Below, piece after piece: positions 34,424 through 53,079 of a stretch of DNA of 64,000 bases. Source of the DNA: Idiomarina rhizosphaerae (GTDB lineage: Bacteria; Pseudomonadota; Gammaproteobacteria; Enterobacterales; Alteromonadaceae); assembly GCF_024159085.1 (NCBI RefSeq), contig NZ_JAMZDE010000008.1, positions 248,001 through 312,000 of the forward strand, read 5' to 3'. Under the pieces are notes generated by a model. It did not search any database, had not been told where the DNA came from, and saw only the letters and a program-made list of their open reading frames with translations. The position numbers were made by a program, and so were the translations under genes. Every line of letters starts with the position of its first letter. Position 1 is the first letter of the stretch.

Positions 34424-35662
34424 CTAATGCCCTTCCAGCAATAGCCTAAACCACTCTTCGTCTTCATCGCTCGCCAGCTTCCCTAAATTCTGCAGAAGTT
34501 TTTCAGTCTCGGTTACGGGTTCTGTCATATACCAATGCAGTAACTGCTCAAATTTCTCCTCACCAATTCTGTCTTTTAACTTTTTCAACATAAGCGGGCC
34601 AAGGCCGTAATTCACTTTGAAAGAAGCTCGTTGTTCAGTGTCAGCACGCCAGACAAAGCTCTGCCCTTTTGCTCGTGCTTTCCACTCAGCCAGTATTTGC
34701 TCATATGCCTCAGTGCCAAACACTGATTTAACTTCTTCCGCAGCGATGTATTCGGCAAAAGACTCCATCATCCAATAGTCATGTGACATGGCATCGCCAA
34801 GTGCTGTCCAGTTATGAGAAAGCTCGTGACAAATATAATGATAGCTTTGTTGCTTTGACTTCAGCCGTTGGCTACTAACCGATAAGTAATTCCCGCGTGC
34901 AAAGCTGGGACCGTCACGATCTAAAATCACTAAAGTAGCTGATTCCAATTTGTCTTCCTGACCAAATTTCTGATTCAACGCGGCCAGACAGCCGCTACCT
35001 AAGGCTGCAAGTGACTTCGCATTCTCTTCGTTTGCTTTGTCATAAACAACAGAGAAACTTCCGTCGTTGTACTCATTGCTGCTTGAGGTGGTATAGAAAG
35101 ACACATCAACCTGGTTTTTTGTTCCTGTTAGTTTGTGTTGGTTGTCACGCTGAGTAACCGCCCCGGGGCCGTACATCTTCCAACCAGGTGGTAACTTCAC
35201 CTCAAGTTCGCCTTGCATAGGTGTTGCGAAATTCGTATAGAACGGGTGCCAGGCAGAATCTATACTCAGATGAATACCGTCTTCAGTAATAAAGTTGCCA
35301 TGCCCACCGGTATTATCGATTACACCAGTATAAGAAAGCGTAATTTCGTGTGCTTTTGAGGCCCCCTCAAAAACCAAAGCAACTTCGTTCCATGGCGGAA
35401 CTTTTTCCGAAGAGTTAACCGAGTATTCTTTTAAGCTTTCGCCTGAAATATCAGCAATATTAAAACTCTTATTAAGAAACAACCGAGCCTCATTATTCGT
35501 TAAAGCCGACACCGGAATCGTTAACTCAGTCGTTACCTTCAACTCACCAGACTTGATATCAAACTCAGCTGAAGTATCGTATTGCGAGAAGTCTGTCGGG
35601 TTCTGGGCAATAGCAACGCATGGTAAGAGTAATAAAATAGAGAGTAAGAAAGCTGTTTTCAT
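34424..35662 (-). CDS. M1-family metallopeptidase, exported
   Basis: The ATG at 35662 has AGGGAAAG upstream and starts a signal peptide (19-20 residues, A-I-A-Q); the open frame 54 codons upstream has no such support. The 412-residue protein carries the zinc motif H279-E-L-S-H283 with a following Glu (M-M-E-S-F-A-E-Y near 300). The usual exopeptidase G-x-M-E-N motif is not seen; F-A-R-G-N-Y stands in the matching place, so aminopeptidase activity is uncertain. A Fur box lies about 140 bases upstream, which could also affect this gene. Confidence 0.82.
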   Translation of the reverse strand: MKTAFLLSILLLLPCVAIAQNPTDFSQYDTSAEFDIKSGELKVTTELTIPVSALTNNEARLFLNKSFNIADISGESLKEYSVNSSEKVPPWNEVALVFEGASKAHEITLSYTGVIDNTGGHGNFITEDGIHLSIDSAWHPFYTNFATPMQGELEVKLPPGWKMYGPGAVTQRDNQHKLTGTKNQVDVSFYTTSSSNEYNDGSFSVVYDKANEENAKSLAALGSGCLAALNQKFGQEDKLESATLVILDRDGPSFARGNYLSVSSQRLKSKQQSYHYICHELSHNWTALGDAMSHDYWMMESFAEYIAAEEVKSVFGTEAYEQILAEWKARAKGQSFVWRADTEQRASFKVNYGLGPLMLKKLKDRIGEEKFEQLLHWYMTEPVTETEKLLQNLGKLASDEDEEWFRLLLEGH

Positions 35663-35791
35663 ATTCTTTCCCTGAACATTATTTAGCTCTACACTAGCAA
35701 ACCTGATCAGGCTTCTCACTAACCTATTTTTTACAAAATATTGGTTTTTCCAATCTATGTATTCACTCCTCATCAGAATATTAAAACAAAC

Positions 35792-35820
35792 TTGCAAATA
35801 GTAATAATTCTCATTATGAT
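35792..35820 (+). promoter_or_regulatory. Promoter with overlapping Fur box, driving a predicted sRNA
   Basis: A -35 hexamer TTGCAA at 35792-35797 and a -10 hexamer TATGAT at 35815-35820 are separated by exactly 17 bases. Positions 35802-35820, read on the minus strand, contain ATAATGAGAATTATTA, which matches 14 of 16 positions of the E. coli Fur consensus core. The box covers the spacer and the -10, the typical place for iron-dependent repression. Predicted start of transcription is about 35827. That Fur binds here is inference from the consensus. Confidence 0.72.
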
Positions 35821-35826
35821 CCACTA

Positions 35827-35929
35827 CGCAATTACTTAAACACTCTTAAGTTTTGCTTTTACAGGTCTTTGCTTTTCCTCTCCCTGGAAGTGCAAATTTG
35901 TTCCCTAGCTTCGGCTAGGGAACTTTTTT
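35827..35929 (+). ncRNA. Predicted Fur-repressed small RNA (RyhB/PrrF-like in function)
   Basis: About 103 bases between the Fur-box promoter and a strong terminator, with no protein gene on either strand. The 5' part can form a hairpin (ACTTAA at 35834-35839 with TTAAGT at 35846-35851). The middle (about 35852-35885) is pyrimidine-rich and mostly unpaired. It contains ACAGGUCUUU, complementary to sdhC codons 4-7, and CUUUUCC, complementary to purine-rich ribosome-binding sites. The end is a cUUCGg hairpin with a U-run, as in Hfq-bound RNAs. I see no sequence similarity to E. coli RyhB beyond this, so it would be a functional analogue rather than a clear homologue. Confidence 0.7.
35900..35929 (+). 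terminator. Rho-independent terminator with UUCG tetraloop
   Basis: A perfect 10-base-pair stem (35900-35909 with 35914-35923) closed by a C(UUCG)G tetraloop, followed directly by six Ts. On the opposite strand the hairpin is followed by AAATTTG, so the orientation is +. No + strand protein gene lies upstream for 1.5 kb, which is why a short RNA must be its source. Confidence 0.88.
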
Positions 35930-35952
35930 ACCAAGACCATAATTAGTACACC

Positions 35953-36411
35953 CTAAAGATCCATAACCCGCTCAAACGCCGGTAAATTTAAAAACGCATT
36001 CACTTTTACTATCTTCTCGTCCACAAAGTGCATTATCCAAACATACCGATTTATATAACTGCCTCCGGATTTCAATTCTGCCTCAGCAGAAAACAGCACT
36101 ATTACCGTATTACCATCCTGAAAAAGCTCAAACTCTATCGGCATAAGTGGAGTTGCAAGCTTTGCGTTGAACGGAATAACGAGTTCTTCCAAAAACTGCT
36201 CCTTATTGAAAGTGCCCGACTGCGGTCCCTCGCCTTCAACTCTCCATTGAATAGAGTCCGCTAAAAGCTCAAAAGGTGACCCTGTTCCTTCTTGCCACAC
36301 AGTAAACTTGTCGGCAACGAGAGCTTTTAGACTCTCGCTTTGGGCTGACGCCGGTACATTCATTAGCAGCACCAGCAAAGTCGCTAATACAATACTTTTA
36401 AGGCTATTCAT
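35953..36411 (-). CDS. Exported NTF2/SnoaL-like protein
   Basis: The start at 36411 opens a signal peptide (about 24 residues, A-S-A-Q); the frame extends 32 codons more into the SDR gene. The 152-residue product has the NTF2/SnoaL-like pattern: W-R-V-E-G-E-G-P, then V-I-V-L-F-S-A-E-A-E and N-R-Y-V-W-I-M-H-F-V-D-E-K-I. These proteins are small ligand-binding or isomerase-type folds. It overlaps the SDR stop by eight bases, so the two are co-transcribed. Confidence 0.7.
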   Translation of the reverse strand: MNSLKSIVLATLLVLLMNVPASAQSESLKALVADKFTVWQEGTGSPFELLADSIQWRVEGEGPQSGTFNKEQFLEELVIPFNAKLATPLMPIEFELFQDGNTVIVLFSAEAELKSGGSYINRYVWIMHFVDEKIVKVNAFLNLPAFERVMDL

Positions 36412-37237
36412 GGTCGGTAGATACCGAAGTATCTCTCCATTTTTCCAGTTCATCTGTCCGGGCGCTAAGTACGTCCTGTGACATTTTAAGCGCATCGGAT
36501 CCTGCAACCATCCTTAAGGGGTAGCTTTCTTTTCCCGCAATTTTGACAATAACTTCAGCCAGTTTGACCGGATCACCGGGTTGGGCATGACTGTAGCTGT
36601 CGAATTGCGAACGCAGCTTTTCAATTGCTTCCGCATAGTCATCAATTGCCTTTTCGCCGTATTTAACTGAGGAGGAATCGAGAAAGTCGGTGCGGAAAAA
36701 GCCGGGCTCGACAATCGTCACGCTAATGCCTAAAGGCTCGACTTCCAGTGCCAGGCTTTCAGAAAAACCTTCAACGGCAAACTTTGTGGCACAGTAAATA
36801 GAGGACGACTCAAACCCAAGCACACCACCAATAGACGACAGGTTAAATATATGACCCGAACGTTGTTTTCGCATGGTGGGCAGCACGGCGCGGGTCACAT
36901 CCATTAAACCGAACACATTGGTGGCAAACTGACTATCGATTGCCTCTCTTGATACTGTTTCGAAGTGACCAAGCTGACCGTAACCGGCGTTATTGACCAG
37001 CACATCTATCCGGCCAAATTTCAAAAGCGCCGCGTCTACCGCGTTTTGCGTTTGCTCTGGTGACTGCACGTTTAGCTCAGCAAATGTCAGTTGCTCTGAG
37101 GGCTGGCCTAAAGCCGCTTCTAACTTCTCCAGGTTTCTTCCGGTGGCAACCACCCTGTCATTATTGGCCAGCGCCGCTTGAGTAATTTCTAATCCAATTC
37201 CCCGGTTTGCGCCGGTAATAAACCATGTTTTATGCAT
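36404..37237 (-). CDS. Short-chain dehydrogenase/reductase
   Basis: The ATG at 37237 follows GGAG; 277 residues. Classical SDR with T-G-A-N-R-G-I-G at residues 8-15, N-N-A-G near 82, S134, Y148 and K152. The pattern is the oxidoreductase type often paired with AraC-family regulators. It is divergent from the AraC gene and followed by the SnoaL-like gene with an 8-base overlap. Confidence 0.88.
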   Translation of the reverse strand: MHKTWFITGANRGIGLEITQAALANNDRVVATGRNLEKLEAALGQPSEQLTFAELNVQSPEQTQNAVDAALLKFGRIDVLVNNAGYGQLGHFETVSREAIDSQFATNVFGLMDVTRAVLPTMRKQRSGHIFNLSSIGGVLGFESSSIYCATKFAVEGFSESLALEVEPLGISVTIVEPGFFRTDFLDSSSVKYGEKAIDDYAEAIEKLRSQFDSYSHAQPGDPVKLAEVIVKIAGKESYPLRMVAGSDALKMSQDVLSARTDELEKWRDTSVSTDHE

Positions 37238-37375: not shown

Positions 37376-38272
37376 ATGCGTAACCTATCAGATGCTGTGA
37401 AGCAAGTAATGACTCTGGCCAGTCACGAGGGATTGCATAAAACACCGTTACCCTGGTTAACCCTTGTTCGTGCGGATAACCCCACCACGCTTGAAATGGT
37501 GTTGTACGAGCCTTCGGTATGCATTGTTCTGCAAGGTAAAAAGGAAACCAGACAGGAACACACCACTTTTTACTCACACGCTGCTAATTGTATTCTGGGC
37601 GCAGTCAACTTACCCGTGTTAGGCGCGGTCATCGAGGCTTCCCCTTCTGAACCTTACCTCTGCCTGCGCATTGACATAGACCCATCAATTATTGCCGAAC
37701 TGGTAGATGAGCATGACCTATCGGGCTCCGCTCCAAACGCTGACAGCGCAATGACACTCGGAGCCGTTGACGAGAACATGATAGATACTGTCAGCAGATT
37801 GCTGGATTCGCTGGAATCTGAAGCCGCCGCGAGGGCTCTGGCCCCACTTATTCAAAAAGAGCTGTATTGGCGTCTTTTGCAGCAGATTCCGGCCAGGGTG
37901 CTACTCAGCCAATTGGCTAAAGACAGCAAGTATTATGCGCTTTACAAAGTTATAAACTGGTTGGAAACTAATTTTTCGCAGCAGGTAACCATGGATGACT
38001 TAGCCAATCAAGCAGCTATGAGCTTATCCAGCTTTTACGCTCACTTTAAAGCCGCCACTGGAATTTCACCGCTACAATACCGCAACCGCTTGCGCTTAAT
38101 AAAAGCCAGAAAACTAATGCTTCTACAGGGCTGTAACGCTGCGGAGGCCGGTTTCGCTGTGGGCTATCAGGAACCGGCTCAGTTTAACCGTGAGTATTCC
38201 CGTTTATTTGGCCTACCTCCCAAACGTGATTTGTTCCGGTTGAAATCCCATTCTTTAGCCGAGTTTGTCTGA
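37376..38272 (+). CDS. AraC-family transcriptional regulator
   Basis: A 298-residue regulator with an AraC_N-type sensor domain (about residues 20-180, with L-Y-E-P-S-V-C-I-V-L-Q-G-K-K near 42) and a C-terminal AraC HTH pair (about 195-285, with F-A-V-G-Y-Q-E-P-A-Q-F-N-R-E-Y). It is of the YqhC type, which activates divergent oxidoreductase genes, here the SDR. TATAAT at 37323-37328 is a likely -10 and AGGG precedes the ATG. Confidence 0.9.
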   Translation: MRNLSDAVKQVMTLASHEGLHKTPLPWLTLVRADNPTTLEMVLYEPSVCIVLQGKKETRQEHTTFYSHAANCILGAVNLPVLGAVIEASPSEPYLCLRIDIDPSIIAELVDEHDLSGSAPNADSAMTLGAVDENMIDTVSRLLDSLESEAAARALAPLIQKELYWRLLQQIPARVLLSQLAKDSKYYALYKVINWLETNFSQQVTMDDLANQAAMSLSSFYAHFKAATGISPLQYRNRLRLIKARKLMLLQGCNAAEAGFAVGYQEPAQFNREYSRLFGLPPKRDLFRLKSHSLAEFV

Positions 38273-38328
38273 TCTTCTAACGAATTTCAGCTTGTTCACT
38301 AAAACTTAAAGCTTATTTAAATTCATTA

Positions 38329-38357
38329 TTGAAACGCAAATCATTCTCATTTATTAT
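38329..38357 (+). promoter_or_regulatory. Promoter with Fur-box-like spacer before the TonB receptor
   Basis: TTGAAA at 38329-38334 and TATTAT at 38352-38357 are 17 bases apart. The spacer contains AAATCATTCTCATTT, which matches about 11 of 15 Fur consensus positions when read on the minus strand. The predicted transcript starts about 20 bases before the receptor ATG at 38386. Iron repression is expected for a siderophore receptor. Confidence 0.6.
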
Positions 38358-38385
38358 TAACCTCCGACATTTCACGGGGGTATCA

Positions 38386-40539
38386 ATGAAACTGACAAAA
38401 TGCTTTATCGCACTGACTCTGGCAGGTATGACAAGCACACCACTGCTGGCACAAGAAACACAAACAACAAACGAATCAGACTCAACTAGCGCTCAAGAAA
38501 ACATAGAGCACATTAACGTTAAAGGCCGGGCTCAAACGCTCTACCGTCAGGACTCAAGCAGTGTCGCCACACGCACGAATACGCCCATTGAAGAAATTCC
38601 ACAAAGCGTTCAGGTGCTGACCGAAGAACTCATGAAAGATCAGGCCGCCCGCCAAATAACCGATTTGTATCGCAGCATCAGTGGTGTGAATTCATTCAGT
38701 TACTCAACCATTACTTTCCGCGGTTTCCGTCAGGATGACATTTTTTATGACGGTGTTCGTGGTGACCCCTTTAACGGATTCGCGGTTCCCCAGCTGTTCA
38801 ACATTGGACAAATTCAGGTATTGAAAGGCCCAAGTGGCGCCATGTTTGGTAGCGGTCAGCCCGGCGGTGTTATTAACTACGTGACAAAAAAGCCGACAGC
38901 AACGGCGGAGCGTTCCATTGAACTGGGGCTCGGAAATTACGACTACAAACGCGGTTCTGTTGAATTAAGCGGTCCGCTTACCGAAGATGCTTCTCAGCGT
39001 TACCGCGTCGGTTACTATTATGACAACGAAAAACCATTTCGCTATAACACAGAGCAAACCAATAAAATTCTCGATTTAGGTTACGCTTTTGATGTAGGAA
39101 GCGACAGCGAGATCATTCTTCAGTTAACCGACTACGAGCAAGATTACCAGGGCGCTCGCCTTCGCGGCGTGCCGGTTGATAACGACGGTAACTTTGTCAC
39201 CGACCGTAAATGGAACCATAACGAAGCGAGCGACTTCCAAAGATTAGAAGCTACCGTTTATCAGGCCCGTATTAATCACGACTTCTCGCTTAACTGGCGC
39301 GGCGATTTAACCGTTCGTCACTATGAGAACACCGAGCGTCAGAATTATCACGAGCCTCGCGGCCTGCTTGATGCCGACTTAAATCCTGTGGACGACCCTA
39401 GAGAGGCAGTTTATAGTCAACGTCAATTCCGTAACCAGTATCGTGAAAACGAAGCCACCAGCGTTACCGGTAACTTAATTGGTGAACTCAATATTTCCGG
39501 TCTGGAACATACCGTGTTGATGGGTGCCGAAAGTTATACGGCAGACAACACCTTTATTGGCAACAACGCAAACCCTGGCGAAGTTCCCAATTTAGAGATC
39601 CATAACCCAGTTTACGGACTGACCTCAGGCCCCTACTCTACCGCATTAGAAAATGCGACCCCAAGAGTTACAAAAACTCAGCGCGACGGCTTCTACCTGC
39701 AGGATCAAATTTCGTTTAATGAGAAAGCGAACCTGTTACTGGGTCTGCGTTACGACCAGTTTGAAGACGAGACCAACGCAGCAGATTTTGATGACAGCGA
39801 TTTAACCTACCGTATTGGCGGAACTTATGAGTTTGCCGACTGGGTTCGGGCTTATGCGTTATACGGTACAGGGTTCTCACCGCAATCGGCCGGGGATCAG
39901 GAATCAGAGGTTGGCGGTCCTTTCGAGCCGGAACAATCGGATATTAAGGAGTTGGGCGCCCGTTGGTCATTGATTAACGACAGCATTCGCGTCAGCACCG
40001 CAGTTTACGAAATTAACCGCGAAAACATTTTGCAGGCAACCGGTGAAGTCAGCGAAGACGGTCGCAATGTTTTAGGCAACGTAGGCAAAGTGCGCAGCCG
40101 TGGGTTTGAAATTGATGTGCTGGGCGACATTACCGACCAATGGGTTATTAATGCTAACTATGCATACAACGATGCAAAAGTGGTAGAAACCGTACCTGGC
40201 CAGGGTATTACCAACGCAGTCGGTGACCAGTTCGCAAACGCTCCTATGCACCAAATGGGTTTATGGACGCGCTATGACTTGCCTGCACTGAACTCCTCTA
40301 TCAGCGGTGGTATGGATTACGTCAGTGAGCAAATAAGCTTTTCGAACCCCGCTCAACGAGTTAAGCCCTACACTGTGTTTGATATCAGCTGGCAAACTGA
40401 GTTTGACCAGTGGTTAGTTCAGGTTAATATCAAAAACTTATTTGATAAGGAATATGCGTCAAGCGGCTTCTTAACCCGTACCGGACATTTCCCGGGCGAA
40501 CCTCGTCGCATTTACGCATCGGTTAAATATCGTTTTTAA
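38386..40539 (+). CDS. TonB-dependent siderophore receptor
   Basis: The ATG at 38386 starts a signal peptide (about 23 residues, L-L-A-Q-E); a TTG 57 bases upstream is less likely. The 717-residue outer-membrane protein has the plug domain (about 65-170: E-I-P-Q-S-V-Q-V-L, R-G-F-R-Q-D-D, V-L-K-G-P-S-G-A-M-F-G) and a 22-strand barrel ending in Y-R-F. The type is the siderophore (TonB-siderophor) family; the ligand cannot be told. It is followed 12 bases later by a PepSY protein. Confidence 0.93.
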   Translation: MKLTKCFIALTLAGMTSTPLLAQETQTTNESDSTSAQENIEHINVKGRAQTLYRQDSSSVATRTNTPIEEIPQSVQVLTEELMKDQAARQITDLYRSISGVNSFSYSTITFRGFRQDDIFYDGVRGDPFNGFAVPQLFNIGQIQVLKGPSGAMFGSGQPGGVINYVTKKPTATAERSIELGLGNYDYKRGSVELSGPLTEDASQRYRVGYYYDNEKPFRYNTEQTNKILDLGYAFDVGSDSEIILQLTDYEQDYQGARLRGVPVDNDGNFVTDRKWNHNEASDFQRLEATVYQARINHDFSLNWRGDLTVRHYENTERQNYHEPRGLLDADLNPVDDPREAVYSQRQFRNQYRENEATSVTGNLIGELNISGLEHTVLMGAESYTADNTFIGNNANPGEVPNLEIHNPVYGLTSGPYSTALENATPRVTKTQRDGFYLQDQISFNEKANLLLGLRYDQFEDETNAADFDDSDLTYRIGGTYEFADWVRAYALYGTGFSPQSAGDQESEVGGPFEPEQSDIKELGARWSLINDSIRVSTAVYEINRENILQATGEVSEDGRNVLGNVGKVRSRGFEIDVLGDITDQWVINANYAYNDAKVVETVPGQGITNAVGDQFANAPMHQMGLWTRYDLPALNSSISGGMDYVSEQISFSNPAQRVKPYTVFDISWQTEFDQWLVQVNIKNLFDKEYASSGFLTRTGHFPGEPRRIYASVKYRF

Positions 40540-40551
40540 GGACTTTGCTCA

Positions 40552-41784
40552 ATGACTAACCGCCAGTGGTTCAAATTTCATTCCTGGGCTGGCTTCGCCT
40601 TTGCGGGACTTCTGCTGCTTATTTGTATCACTGGCGTTTTAGCTACTCTGAGTTACGAAATTCAATACCTTAGTGACGAAAAATACCGGGCTCTAGAAGA
40701 ACGTGAAGGCCCGGTGGCCTGGAAAGAGCTAGAGTCTAACCTGAGTGAAAACTACCCTGAGAGCCATATTTTAGGGGCGCAGGTGCACTCGCAAGACTAC
40801 CTCTCCGGCGAAGTCCGTTTAATGACCCCAAATGGCTTTCGCTTTGTTTATTTCGATGCAGCCAGCGGAAAGTTACTGGGTGAAGGTGGTTGGGGACAAG
40901 TATCACGCTATTTGCGCGACATTCACATGTATTTGTCTATGGGGGGCGTCGGTAAATACATTGTCACCCTCACCAGCCTCCTGCTTCTTATTTCTCTTGT
41001 TTCCAGCTTTTATGTTTACCGAAAATGGTGGCGCGGATTTCTCGCGAAACCCGGTAAGCTCAGTTGGAAAAAACGAACGGAGTGGTCCTCTTGGCACAAA
41101 TGGATGGGGCTTTGGAGTTGGTGGTTCATCGCTACTATTACAATTACGGGAATATGGTATTTAGCCGAACATATGATGTTCAATTTTGACATTGAACATT
41201 ACCCGGCAGCACCAACAGTTGAGCATACCGAAGCGCAACAGCAACAGCCCGCGCGTTCACTCACTGAACTCGTTAGTATTGCGCAAGCCGCCCGACCAGA
41301 TATGGACATTACCCGATTCTACTATCCGCACCAATACAACCAGCCCATGTCCTTTACCGGACAAAATGGTTCAATACTGGTGCGTGACCGCGCTAACCGA
41401 GTATATCTTGACCCGGTTACCGGAGAGGTTGCAGGAACTCAGTACGCCGGCAATTTAGGTCTTGTCGCCAGAATTTCCGATACAGCCGACCCACTCCACT
41501 TTGGTGACTTCTCCGGACTGACCGTAAAACTTATTTACGCCTTCTTCGGACTCATGCTAGTGGCATTAGTTGCAGGAGGAATGAGAATGCACTATTTACG
41601 GACTCAAAAACGCGACCCAAACACCGCCAAATGGCTGGGAATTACCGGCAGTTTATCGCTTGTACTAAGCGTTGTAGCACTCATCTACACCACCGTTGTC
41701 TTCGACGAATACAGCAATACTTCCACGTCAATTTCGCCGCAGCTTGAACAGCTTAAAACCAAAAACTCTAACTACTCAGAGTAA
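40552..41784 (+). CDS. PepSY-domain membrane protein (PiuB-like)
   Basis: A 410-residue inner-membrane protein with four membrane segments (about 13-34, 137-160, 185-207 and 325-347), of the PepSY-associated TM/PiuB family. The N-terminal W-A-G-F and W-H-K-W-M-G-L-W-S-W-W segments carry conserved His and Trp. It sits directly after the TonB receptor, an arrangement common for siderophore systems, where such proteins are thought to reduce Fe3+-siderophores in the periplasm. It should share iron control with the receptor. Confidence 0.87.
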   Translation: MTNRQWFKFHSWAGFAFAGLLLLICITGVLATLSYEIQYLSDEKYRALEEREGPVAWKELESNLSENYPESHILGAQVHSQDYLSGEVRLMTPNGFRFVYFDAASGKLLGEGGWGQVSRYLRDIHMYLSMGGVGKYIVTLTSLLLLISLVSSFYVYRKWWRGFLAKPGKLSWKKRTEWSSWHKWMGLWSWWFIATITITGIWYLAEHMMFNFDIEHYPAAPTVEHTEAQQQQPARSLTELVSIAQAARPDMDITRFYYPHQYNQPMSFTGQNGSILVRDRANRVYLDPVTGEVAGTQYAGNLGLVARISDTADPLHFGDFSGLTVKLIYAFFGLMLVALVAGGMRMHYLRTQKRDPNTAKWLGITGSLSLVLSVVALIYTTVVFDEYSNTSTSISPQLEQLKTKNSNYSE

Positions 41785-52711: not shown

Positions 52712-53079
52712 AGCCAAACTCCTACTAATACGGAAAAGATCACAGAAAGAGCAATCGAGATAATTGCGCTGATTCTTCCGGAATCGAGTTCTTCCCAGTA
52801 GCCCATGTCCATTACTAAGTGACGCAGACCAATGATTAAGTGAAATCCTAGCGCTGTCAAAATACCCCAGCCAATAAATTTAGCGATAAAGCTGGTCATG
52901 ATACTCTCGATTTGAGCAAAGCCTTCAGGGCCACTAAGTGACACGGCAAAAGCCCAAATTAGAAAAGCCAGAGAGAACAGCATAGCAACACCGGAAATAC
53001 GATGCAGTATGGATGCTTTGGCAGCGGCAGGAAGCTTGATAGTTGATAAGTCTAAATTAACAGGTCTTTCTTTTTTCAC
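52705..53079 (-). CDS. sdhC: Succinate dehydrogenase cytochrome b556 subunit C (GTG start)
   Basis: Start taken as GTG at 53079 because the protein then begins (V)-K-K-E-R-P-V-N-L-D-L, the conserved SdhC N-terminus, and AAGG stands nine bases upstream; the longer frame to 53151 has no such support. 124 residues, three membrane helices, haem His in G-F-H-L-I-I-G-L-R-H near 80. First gene of sdhCDAB. Codons 2-7 are complementary to the predicted Fur-controlled sRNA at 35827-35929 (10 consecutive pairs, 15 with one bulge), so repression under iron starvation is predicted. Confidence 0.93.
   Translation of the reverse strand: MKKERPVNLDLSTIKLPAAAKASILHRISGVAMLFSLAFLIWAFAVSLSGPEGFAQIESIMTSFIAKFIGWGILTALGFHLIIGLRHLVMDMGYWEELDSGRISAIISIALSVIFSVLVGVWLW

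Follow-up and report, generated by a model that had tools for sequence, protein, structure and literature searches.

Does a gap without + strand protein genes in an Idiomarina genome encode a small RNA (sRNA) that saves iron, and which messages would such an RNA meet? The question arises at positions 35792-35929 (+) of the window, by which we mean the whole stretch of 64,000 nucleotides analysed here (G000:C8:248001-312000, within the 2.87-Mb genome of Idiomarina rhizosphaerae). RyhB, PrrF and NrrF share a layout of Fur-type promoter and terminator, and have iron enzymes among their targets. A preliminary description of the locus had proposed an sRNA of iron starvation. In the present study, the unit is read as probably a Fur-repressed, trans-acting, iron-sparing sRNA, which is a functional analogue of RyhB and not a member of its family. 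At the level of sequence, the earlier proposal is supported by the complementarity to sdhC and acnA, and by sister RNAs that carry the same core, some of them behind Fur-like promoters.

Results

The elements of the candidate unit, from promoter to terminator (35792-35929, +), were read directly from the sequence. The -35 element TTGCAA (35792..35797, +) and the -10 element TATGAT (35815..35820, +) are separated by a spacer of 17 bases, and the two hexamers together score 9/12. About 100 bases after this promoter, a perfect 10-bp stem (35900-35923) with a UUCG loop and the run TTTTTT (35924-35929) form an intrinsic terminator (35900..35929, +). These parts had been named in the preliminary description and are confirmed as real; around the unit we found no + strand gene of note, as had also been claimed. 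The promoter hexamers alone stand at chance level, with 4 promoter-like sites in 34500-37000 vs 3.6 +/- 1.9 in shuffles. Terminator-like sites in the same region numbered 4 vs 2.3 +/- 1.6 in shuffles; the terminator of the unit has 10 pairs and the other three have 5 or 6.

A Fur-like operator in overlapping registers lies over the spacer and the -10 element (35794..35821, +). Scoring was made against the 19-base consensus GATAATGATAATCATTATC. The best register (35800-35818) scores 14/19, and overlapping registers at 35794 and 35803 score 13/19; the match of 14 of 16 core positions that had been given for 35802-35820 was not reproduced. Across 60 stretches of the own genome, 57 of 1,198,920 positions score at least 14, and the window has 5 such places, this operator included. 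A score of 14/19 is uncommon in this genome, not unique.

The predicted sRNA (35827..35929, +) would be about 103 nt long, with its 5' base placed from the -10 element. Its folding energy is -35.6 kcal/mol vs -17.9 kcal/mol in shuffles (z -5.9), a figure that includes the terminator. In the minimum-energy fold, a 5' stem-loop (35828..35856, +) is followed by an unpaired stretch, UUUUACAGGUC in RNA letters, and then by the seed hairpin (35868..35896, +) with its 7-base loop UCUCCCU at 35879-35885. Two putative seeds are seen here. Seed A (35857..35870, +) runs from the unpaired TTTTACAGGTC (35857-35867) into the next stem, and seed B is CTCTCCC (35878..35884, +), the complement of the ribosome-binding site GGGAGAG of acnA. 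At the gathering threshold, Rfam gave no match across the whole window nor in 16 related loci; sub-threshold matches of the window copy to AsxR, Phe_leader and NsiR1 were dismissed as chance or terminator-driven.

By blastn, the unit was found in 2 of 18 congeneric genomes, G016 (88% identity) and G004 (74%), so that the long RNA is present in 3/19 Idiomarina genomes when the own genome is counted. From the -35 element to the terminator, TTGCAAATA at the -35 element, ATTCTCATTA in the operator, TTTACAGGTCT in seed A, TTTCCTCTCC and the TTCG stem are kept in all three homologues, and the 5' part and the flanks drift. The preliminary description had predicted just such a pattern, in which promoter, seed and terminator are conserved and the rest drifts, and it holds in these two relatives that retain the RNA. 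In the terminator, three pairs are changed on both sides among the 3 homologues, and 98.1% of 54 cells are paired vs 24-57% in slid controls; the shuffle control for this covariation reached only 25/500, with three sequences. We regard the conservation in G016 and G004 as the strongest evidence that the unit is real. An AT-rich promoter-like stretch brought together by chance with an orphan terminator would explain why the hexamers do not exceed the shuffles; conservation across changing neighbourhoods, the compensated pairs and the sister RNAs with a common core make this explanation very remote.

The neighbourhoods of the three copies were compared by reading translations. In G016, the RNA has a DEAD-box helicase gene on one side and sucD on the other, and in G004 it lies 3' of an oxidoreductase-like gene. 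In the close relative G005, no copy of the RNA was found, and other genes, including a transposase-like one, lie between the helicase gene and sucD. In the window, the unit is flanked by a divergent, M1-peptidase-like gene (34424..35662, -) and by a convergent downstream gene (35953..36411, -) with a weak SnoaL-like match below cut-off. About 140 bp separate the Fur-like site from the start codon (ATG at 35662, -) of the peptidase-like gene, which the site could serve, with the terminator ending another transcript and no sRNA being made. This is highly unlikely, as G016 and G004 lack the peptidase-like neighbour beside the RNA and nevertheless keep promoter, middle and terminator together. The transcript might also encode a small peptide, and by eye the window copy can be read in a frame of about 21 codons that starts with TTG. 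The three homologues differ by one-base indels that put any reading frame out of register, which argues against a conserved small protein, and no ribosome-binding site was seen before the TTG frame; the peptide is scarcely credible.

A pattern scan across genomes matched 6 stretches. Of the four that were read, only L060 (I. aquatica) is a true homologue, and L056, L057 and L059 were dropped; the other two stretches, L055 and L058, have archaeal titles.

Complementarity to the start regions of iron enzymes, which marks the class of iron-sparing sRNAs, was found at two genes, each of them a classic target of such regulation. The first is sdhC, which lies in the window with a GTG start at 53079 (-) and was identified by PF01127. 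Within its codons 4-7, AAAGACCTGT (53060..53069, -) is a perfect 10-nt complement of ACAGGTCTTT (35861-35870) and is the proposed target site of seed A. Start regions were ranked for 741 of 748 called genes, which were simple ORF calls (7 were dropped for short flanks or N). For seed A, sdhC was 2nd among the 741 with accessibility and 58th by duplex energy alone, and for the whole RNA it was 41st with accessibility and 79th by duplex energy. Over 1162 genes, the longest perfect runs were one of 15 nt and eight of 10, sdhC being among these nine. The site is identical in 17/19 genomes, a conservation that is expected anyway because the site is coding. In addition, 19 bases of the window RNA (35858-35876) are exactly complementary to the sdhC start of other families in 7/98 genomes, a match that exceeds the 10-base match in the own genome. 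As a conserved sRNA seed this 19-base match was rejected, for it is the antisense of the sdhC start: of six loci inspected among the seven (L016, L018-L022), three translate VKKQRPVNLDL and three hold the same DNA on the opposite strand. It appears to be a lead to the target, not to homologues.

The second gene is acnA, in which GGGAGAG, the complement of CUCUCCC, is the ribosome-binding site in 17/19 genomes and the best-kept 7-mer of the leader. Control genes, chosen for having GGGAGAG in the own genome, kept it less often (lon 6/19, nqrD 6/19, ccoO 5/19, glnD 2/19, and BCCT 5/17, this gene having been found in 17/19 genomes); acnA was singled out after looking. Some of these counts may be lower bounds, because in some glnD, BCCT, ccoO, nqrD and acnA rows the frame shown begins a few codons away from the real start. 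Among 1162 sampled genes, 8 have GGGAGAG in the start region, namely acnA, ccoO and nqrD, with Pfam-supported identities, and lon, glnD, a BCCT transporter, a response regulator and an ECF-sigma-like gene, which were named by reading. NqrD contains iron. Five of the 8 are not iron enzymes, and GGGAGAG is also a plain ribosome-binding site. Among the 741 start regions, acnA was outside the 15 best for seed B with accessibility, a ranking in which ccoO was 12th, and outside the 15 best for the whole RNA. G005 retains the acnA site and has no detected RNA.

These non-iron genes with GGGAGAG would suit another reading, in which a Fur-regulated RNA mainly does something other than spare iron. Seed B would then be a loop directed in general at ribosome-binding sites and used by several sRNAs of Alteromonadales, and sdhC would match only by coincidence. 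We consider this reading unlikely, in that GGGAGAG is far more widely kept at acnA than at the five other genes. An asnB-like gene (L197, G000:C8 near 325731, -) gave the longest match of all those sampled, 15 nt of perfect complementarity at its ribosome-binding site, and this would also agree with a general loop. Of 16 genomes read, 12 keep the core of the site, also where the long RNA is absent, and the G004 RNA is altered at the stretch that matches it. As the presence of the RNA makes no difference to the conservation of the site, the asnB-like gene is only a weak candidate target.

For the iron-sparing reading, the joint weight of the two complementarities was estimated with 5000 shuffles of the RNA body. 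A run of at least 10 at sdhC arose in 234, a run of at least 8 at acnA in 266, and both in 6; neither run alone is rare in shuffles. Both targets had been picked with RyhB in mind, and the statistical weight of the target complementarities is moderate.

Relatives of the RNA were sought with covariance models. R1, built from the three long RNAs, gave weak matches in G010 (E 0.0046), G014 (0.078), G009 (0.157) and G018 (0.78, at the relevant place). These four places hold one short RNA with the same promoter type and Fur scores of 13-14 of 19; it adjoins a gene reading as a cold-shock protein and has TTGCAAATAACAATCATTTTCATTA, CTCTCTCCCTGGCTAATG and a terminator in this order. R2, built from the four short RNAs, retrieves all three long RNAs, with E values of 2.6e-6, 8.0e-6 and 1.3e-3, and promoter and terminator contribute part of these scores. 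This evidence is reciprocal, not independent, because R1 had found the four short RNAs. Searching with R2 further uncovered a third Fur-box RNA, in G011 (14/19), and hairpins behind a receptor gene. The core common to the long and sister RNAs is CUCUCCC, which is predicted to be mostly unpaired. In folds of 21 core-bearing elements, it has at most one base paired in 16 and lies half in the loop in 3, the exceptions being the 3'UTR of the own genome, in which it is part paired, and G013, in which it is all paired. Matches in L046 (G018), L070, L071 and L075 had no CUCUCCC core and were rejected.

Across 395 family genomes, R1 gave six genomes with E <= 0.05, four of them in Idiomarina; those outside were G155 and G353, and the G353 match showed no convincing relative. 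The place in G155 (L061:1500-1633) has a Fur-box-like promoter (12/19), about 100 bases and a terminator, in a sequence unrelated to the window RNA, and it is a candidate iron sRNA in genus g25.

The pattern CTCTCCCTGG-N(16-46)-TTTTT was present in 13/19 Idiomarina genomes and the reversed pattern in 0/19. In the family, the pattern was present in 85/395 genomes, many of them outside Idiomarina, and this breadth, which includes an RNA downstream of a putative polA in G013, is again what a general loop would give; some of the 85 are chance, seeing that the reversed pattern occurs in 5/395. The place G000:C7:130017 fits the pattern and has no clear sRNA layout, and it was set aside.

The G013 element (L104:1440-1555) is a different RNA with CTCTCCCTGG and a terminator, downstream of a gene reading as polA, and its best Fur-like score is only 10/19. 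In E. coli, spf/Spot 42 sits downstream of polA. Against Rfam, this RNA scored 29.7 bits for anti-hemB (RF02837), 28.7 for mmgR (RF00519) and 25.6 for Betaproteobacteria toxic sRNA (RF02278), all below the curated cut-offs, and 17.2 bits for Spot 42, also below cut-off. The likeness to the first three lies in a CUCUCC/CCUCC-type motif followed by a terminator; none of the three was among the matches listed with E up to 10 for the window copy. In genus g27, the CTCTCCCTGG pattern was seen in all 26 genomes counted. In addition, an element of the form CTCTCCCTGG(A/G)CCCGATTTC.CTAGCGC with a T-run was seen in L174-L177 (genus g15) and in G107 and G168 (genus g81); it is apparently intergenic and common to several genera.

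The hairpins found with R2 lie behind the gene of a TonB-dependent receptor, which is present in 16/19 Idiomarina genomes at E <= 1e-15. In G011, part of the receptor matches a Pfam beta-barrel, and its best NCBIfam match is a siderophore receptor, below cut-off. A CUCUCCC- or CCUCCC-type hairpin with a terminator follows the receptor stop codon directly in 11/16 genomes (L145-L156). The own genome is among the 11 (G000:C5:134943 onward, L151, loop CUCUCU), and G001 has only UUUUCCC there. The four genomes without the hairpin are exactly those with the short RNA. We consider the hairpin and terminator a candidate 3'UTR-derived sRNA. Before the gene, all six receptor promoters examined have TTGCGAAT(C/T)ATT in common, and as Fur sites they score between 12 and 14 of 19. 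A score of at least 12 occurs at 1760/1,198,920 positions, or about 1 per 700 bases, which is near chance, so that these scores no more than hint at Fur control of the receptor.

Discussion

The iron-sparing reading, which we consider probable, would work as follows. When iron is present, Fur-Fe would cover the operator that overlaps the spacer and the -10 element. When iron is absent, the promoter would fire and the RNA of about 103 nt would end at the UUCG terminator. Its loop CUCUCCC would pair with GGGAGAG at the acnA ribosome-binding site, and ACAGGUCUUU would pair with codons 4-7 of sdhC, with the aid of Hfq if this should be needed. Ribosome entry on the acnA and sdhC messages would then be blocked, and iron would be saved.

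Among the known systems, RyhB (RF00057; Enterobacterales, Vibrio, Shewanella) is like the window RNA in its strong terminator and in features that are predicted for the latter, namely the Fur-type promoter, the length of about 100 nt and the probable acnA and sdhC targets; PrrF (RF00444, Pseudomonas) is like it in the terminator and the putative Fur-type promoter. NrrF (Neisseria) and ArrF (Azotobacter) resemble it in layout and in the proposed function. In the interval 35700-36000, Rfam showed no match to RyhB or PrrF, although E values up to 10 were admitted, and for RF00057 this bears out the earlier remark that the RNA has no clear sequence homology to RyhB. One sister 3'UTR (L145) scored 19.9 bits against the RyhB model, under the 55-bit cut-off, in an alignment that was mainly terminator. 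With the PrrF consensus, the short sister RNA has UCUCC and GGCUAAU in common, at 19.7 bits (E 0.13), far under the 90-bit cut-off. Membership in the RyhB or PrrF family fails by score; likeness of function does not.

According to PMC8891985, RyhB is present in Shewanella with an iron-sparing role. In PMC9410917, aconitase is described as a target common to iron-sparing sRNAs, and IsrR of Staphylococcus aureus is a Fur-regulated RNA with C-rich single-stranded stretches, some of them in loops, directed at the G-rich ribosome-binding sites of iron-enzyme messages. IsrR is similar to the window RNA, which also has a C-rich stretch, predicted to be single-stranded and putatively aimed at a ribosome-binding site, and differs in being staphylococcal and in having three C-rich regions and three stem-loops.

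The window RNA forms a new family by sequence and would belong to a functional kind that is already known; a literature search, judged by title, found no paper on an iron-regulated sRNA in Idiomarina. What may go beyond the known kind is a loop-terminator module that recurs on different transcripts, some of them with Fur-like promoters. We tentatively suggest, as a possibility somewhat short of an even chance, that the iron-sparing regulator of Idiomarina is a portable module, a short CUCUCCC hairpin with a terminator. By lineage, it would be carried either by a stand-alone RNA with a Fur promoter, of at least three kinds, or by the 3' end of the mRNA of a TonB receptor that would itself be under iron control. 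The carrier gene would change, and the loop and the ribosome-binding site of aconitase would not. Homology, exchange or convergence could each be the source of this recurrence.

If the iron-sparing reading is true, the RyhB strategy would have arisen independently once more, again with aconitase as a target. A series of close relatives that have the same pairing core on different transcripts makes the birth and relocation of sRNAs testable, and the candidate target sites allow rapid testing of the claim.

Close to the unit, the window at 37376-41784 holds genes for an AraC-type regulator (matches below cut-offs), a TonB-dependent siderophore receptor (TIGR01783, above cut-off) and a PepSY-type membrane protein (by reading), likely an iron-uptake cluster near the candidate sRNA.
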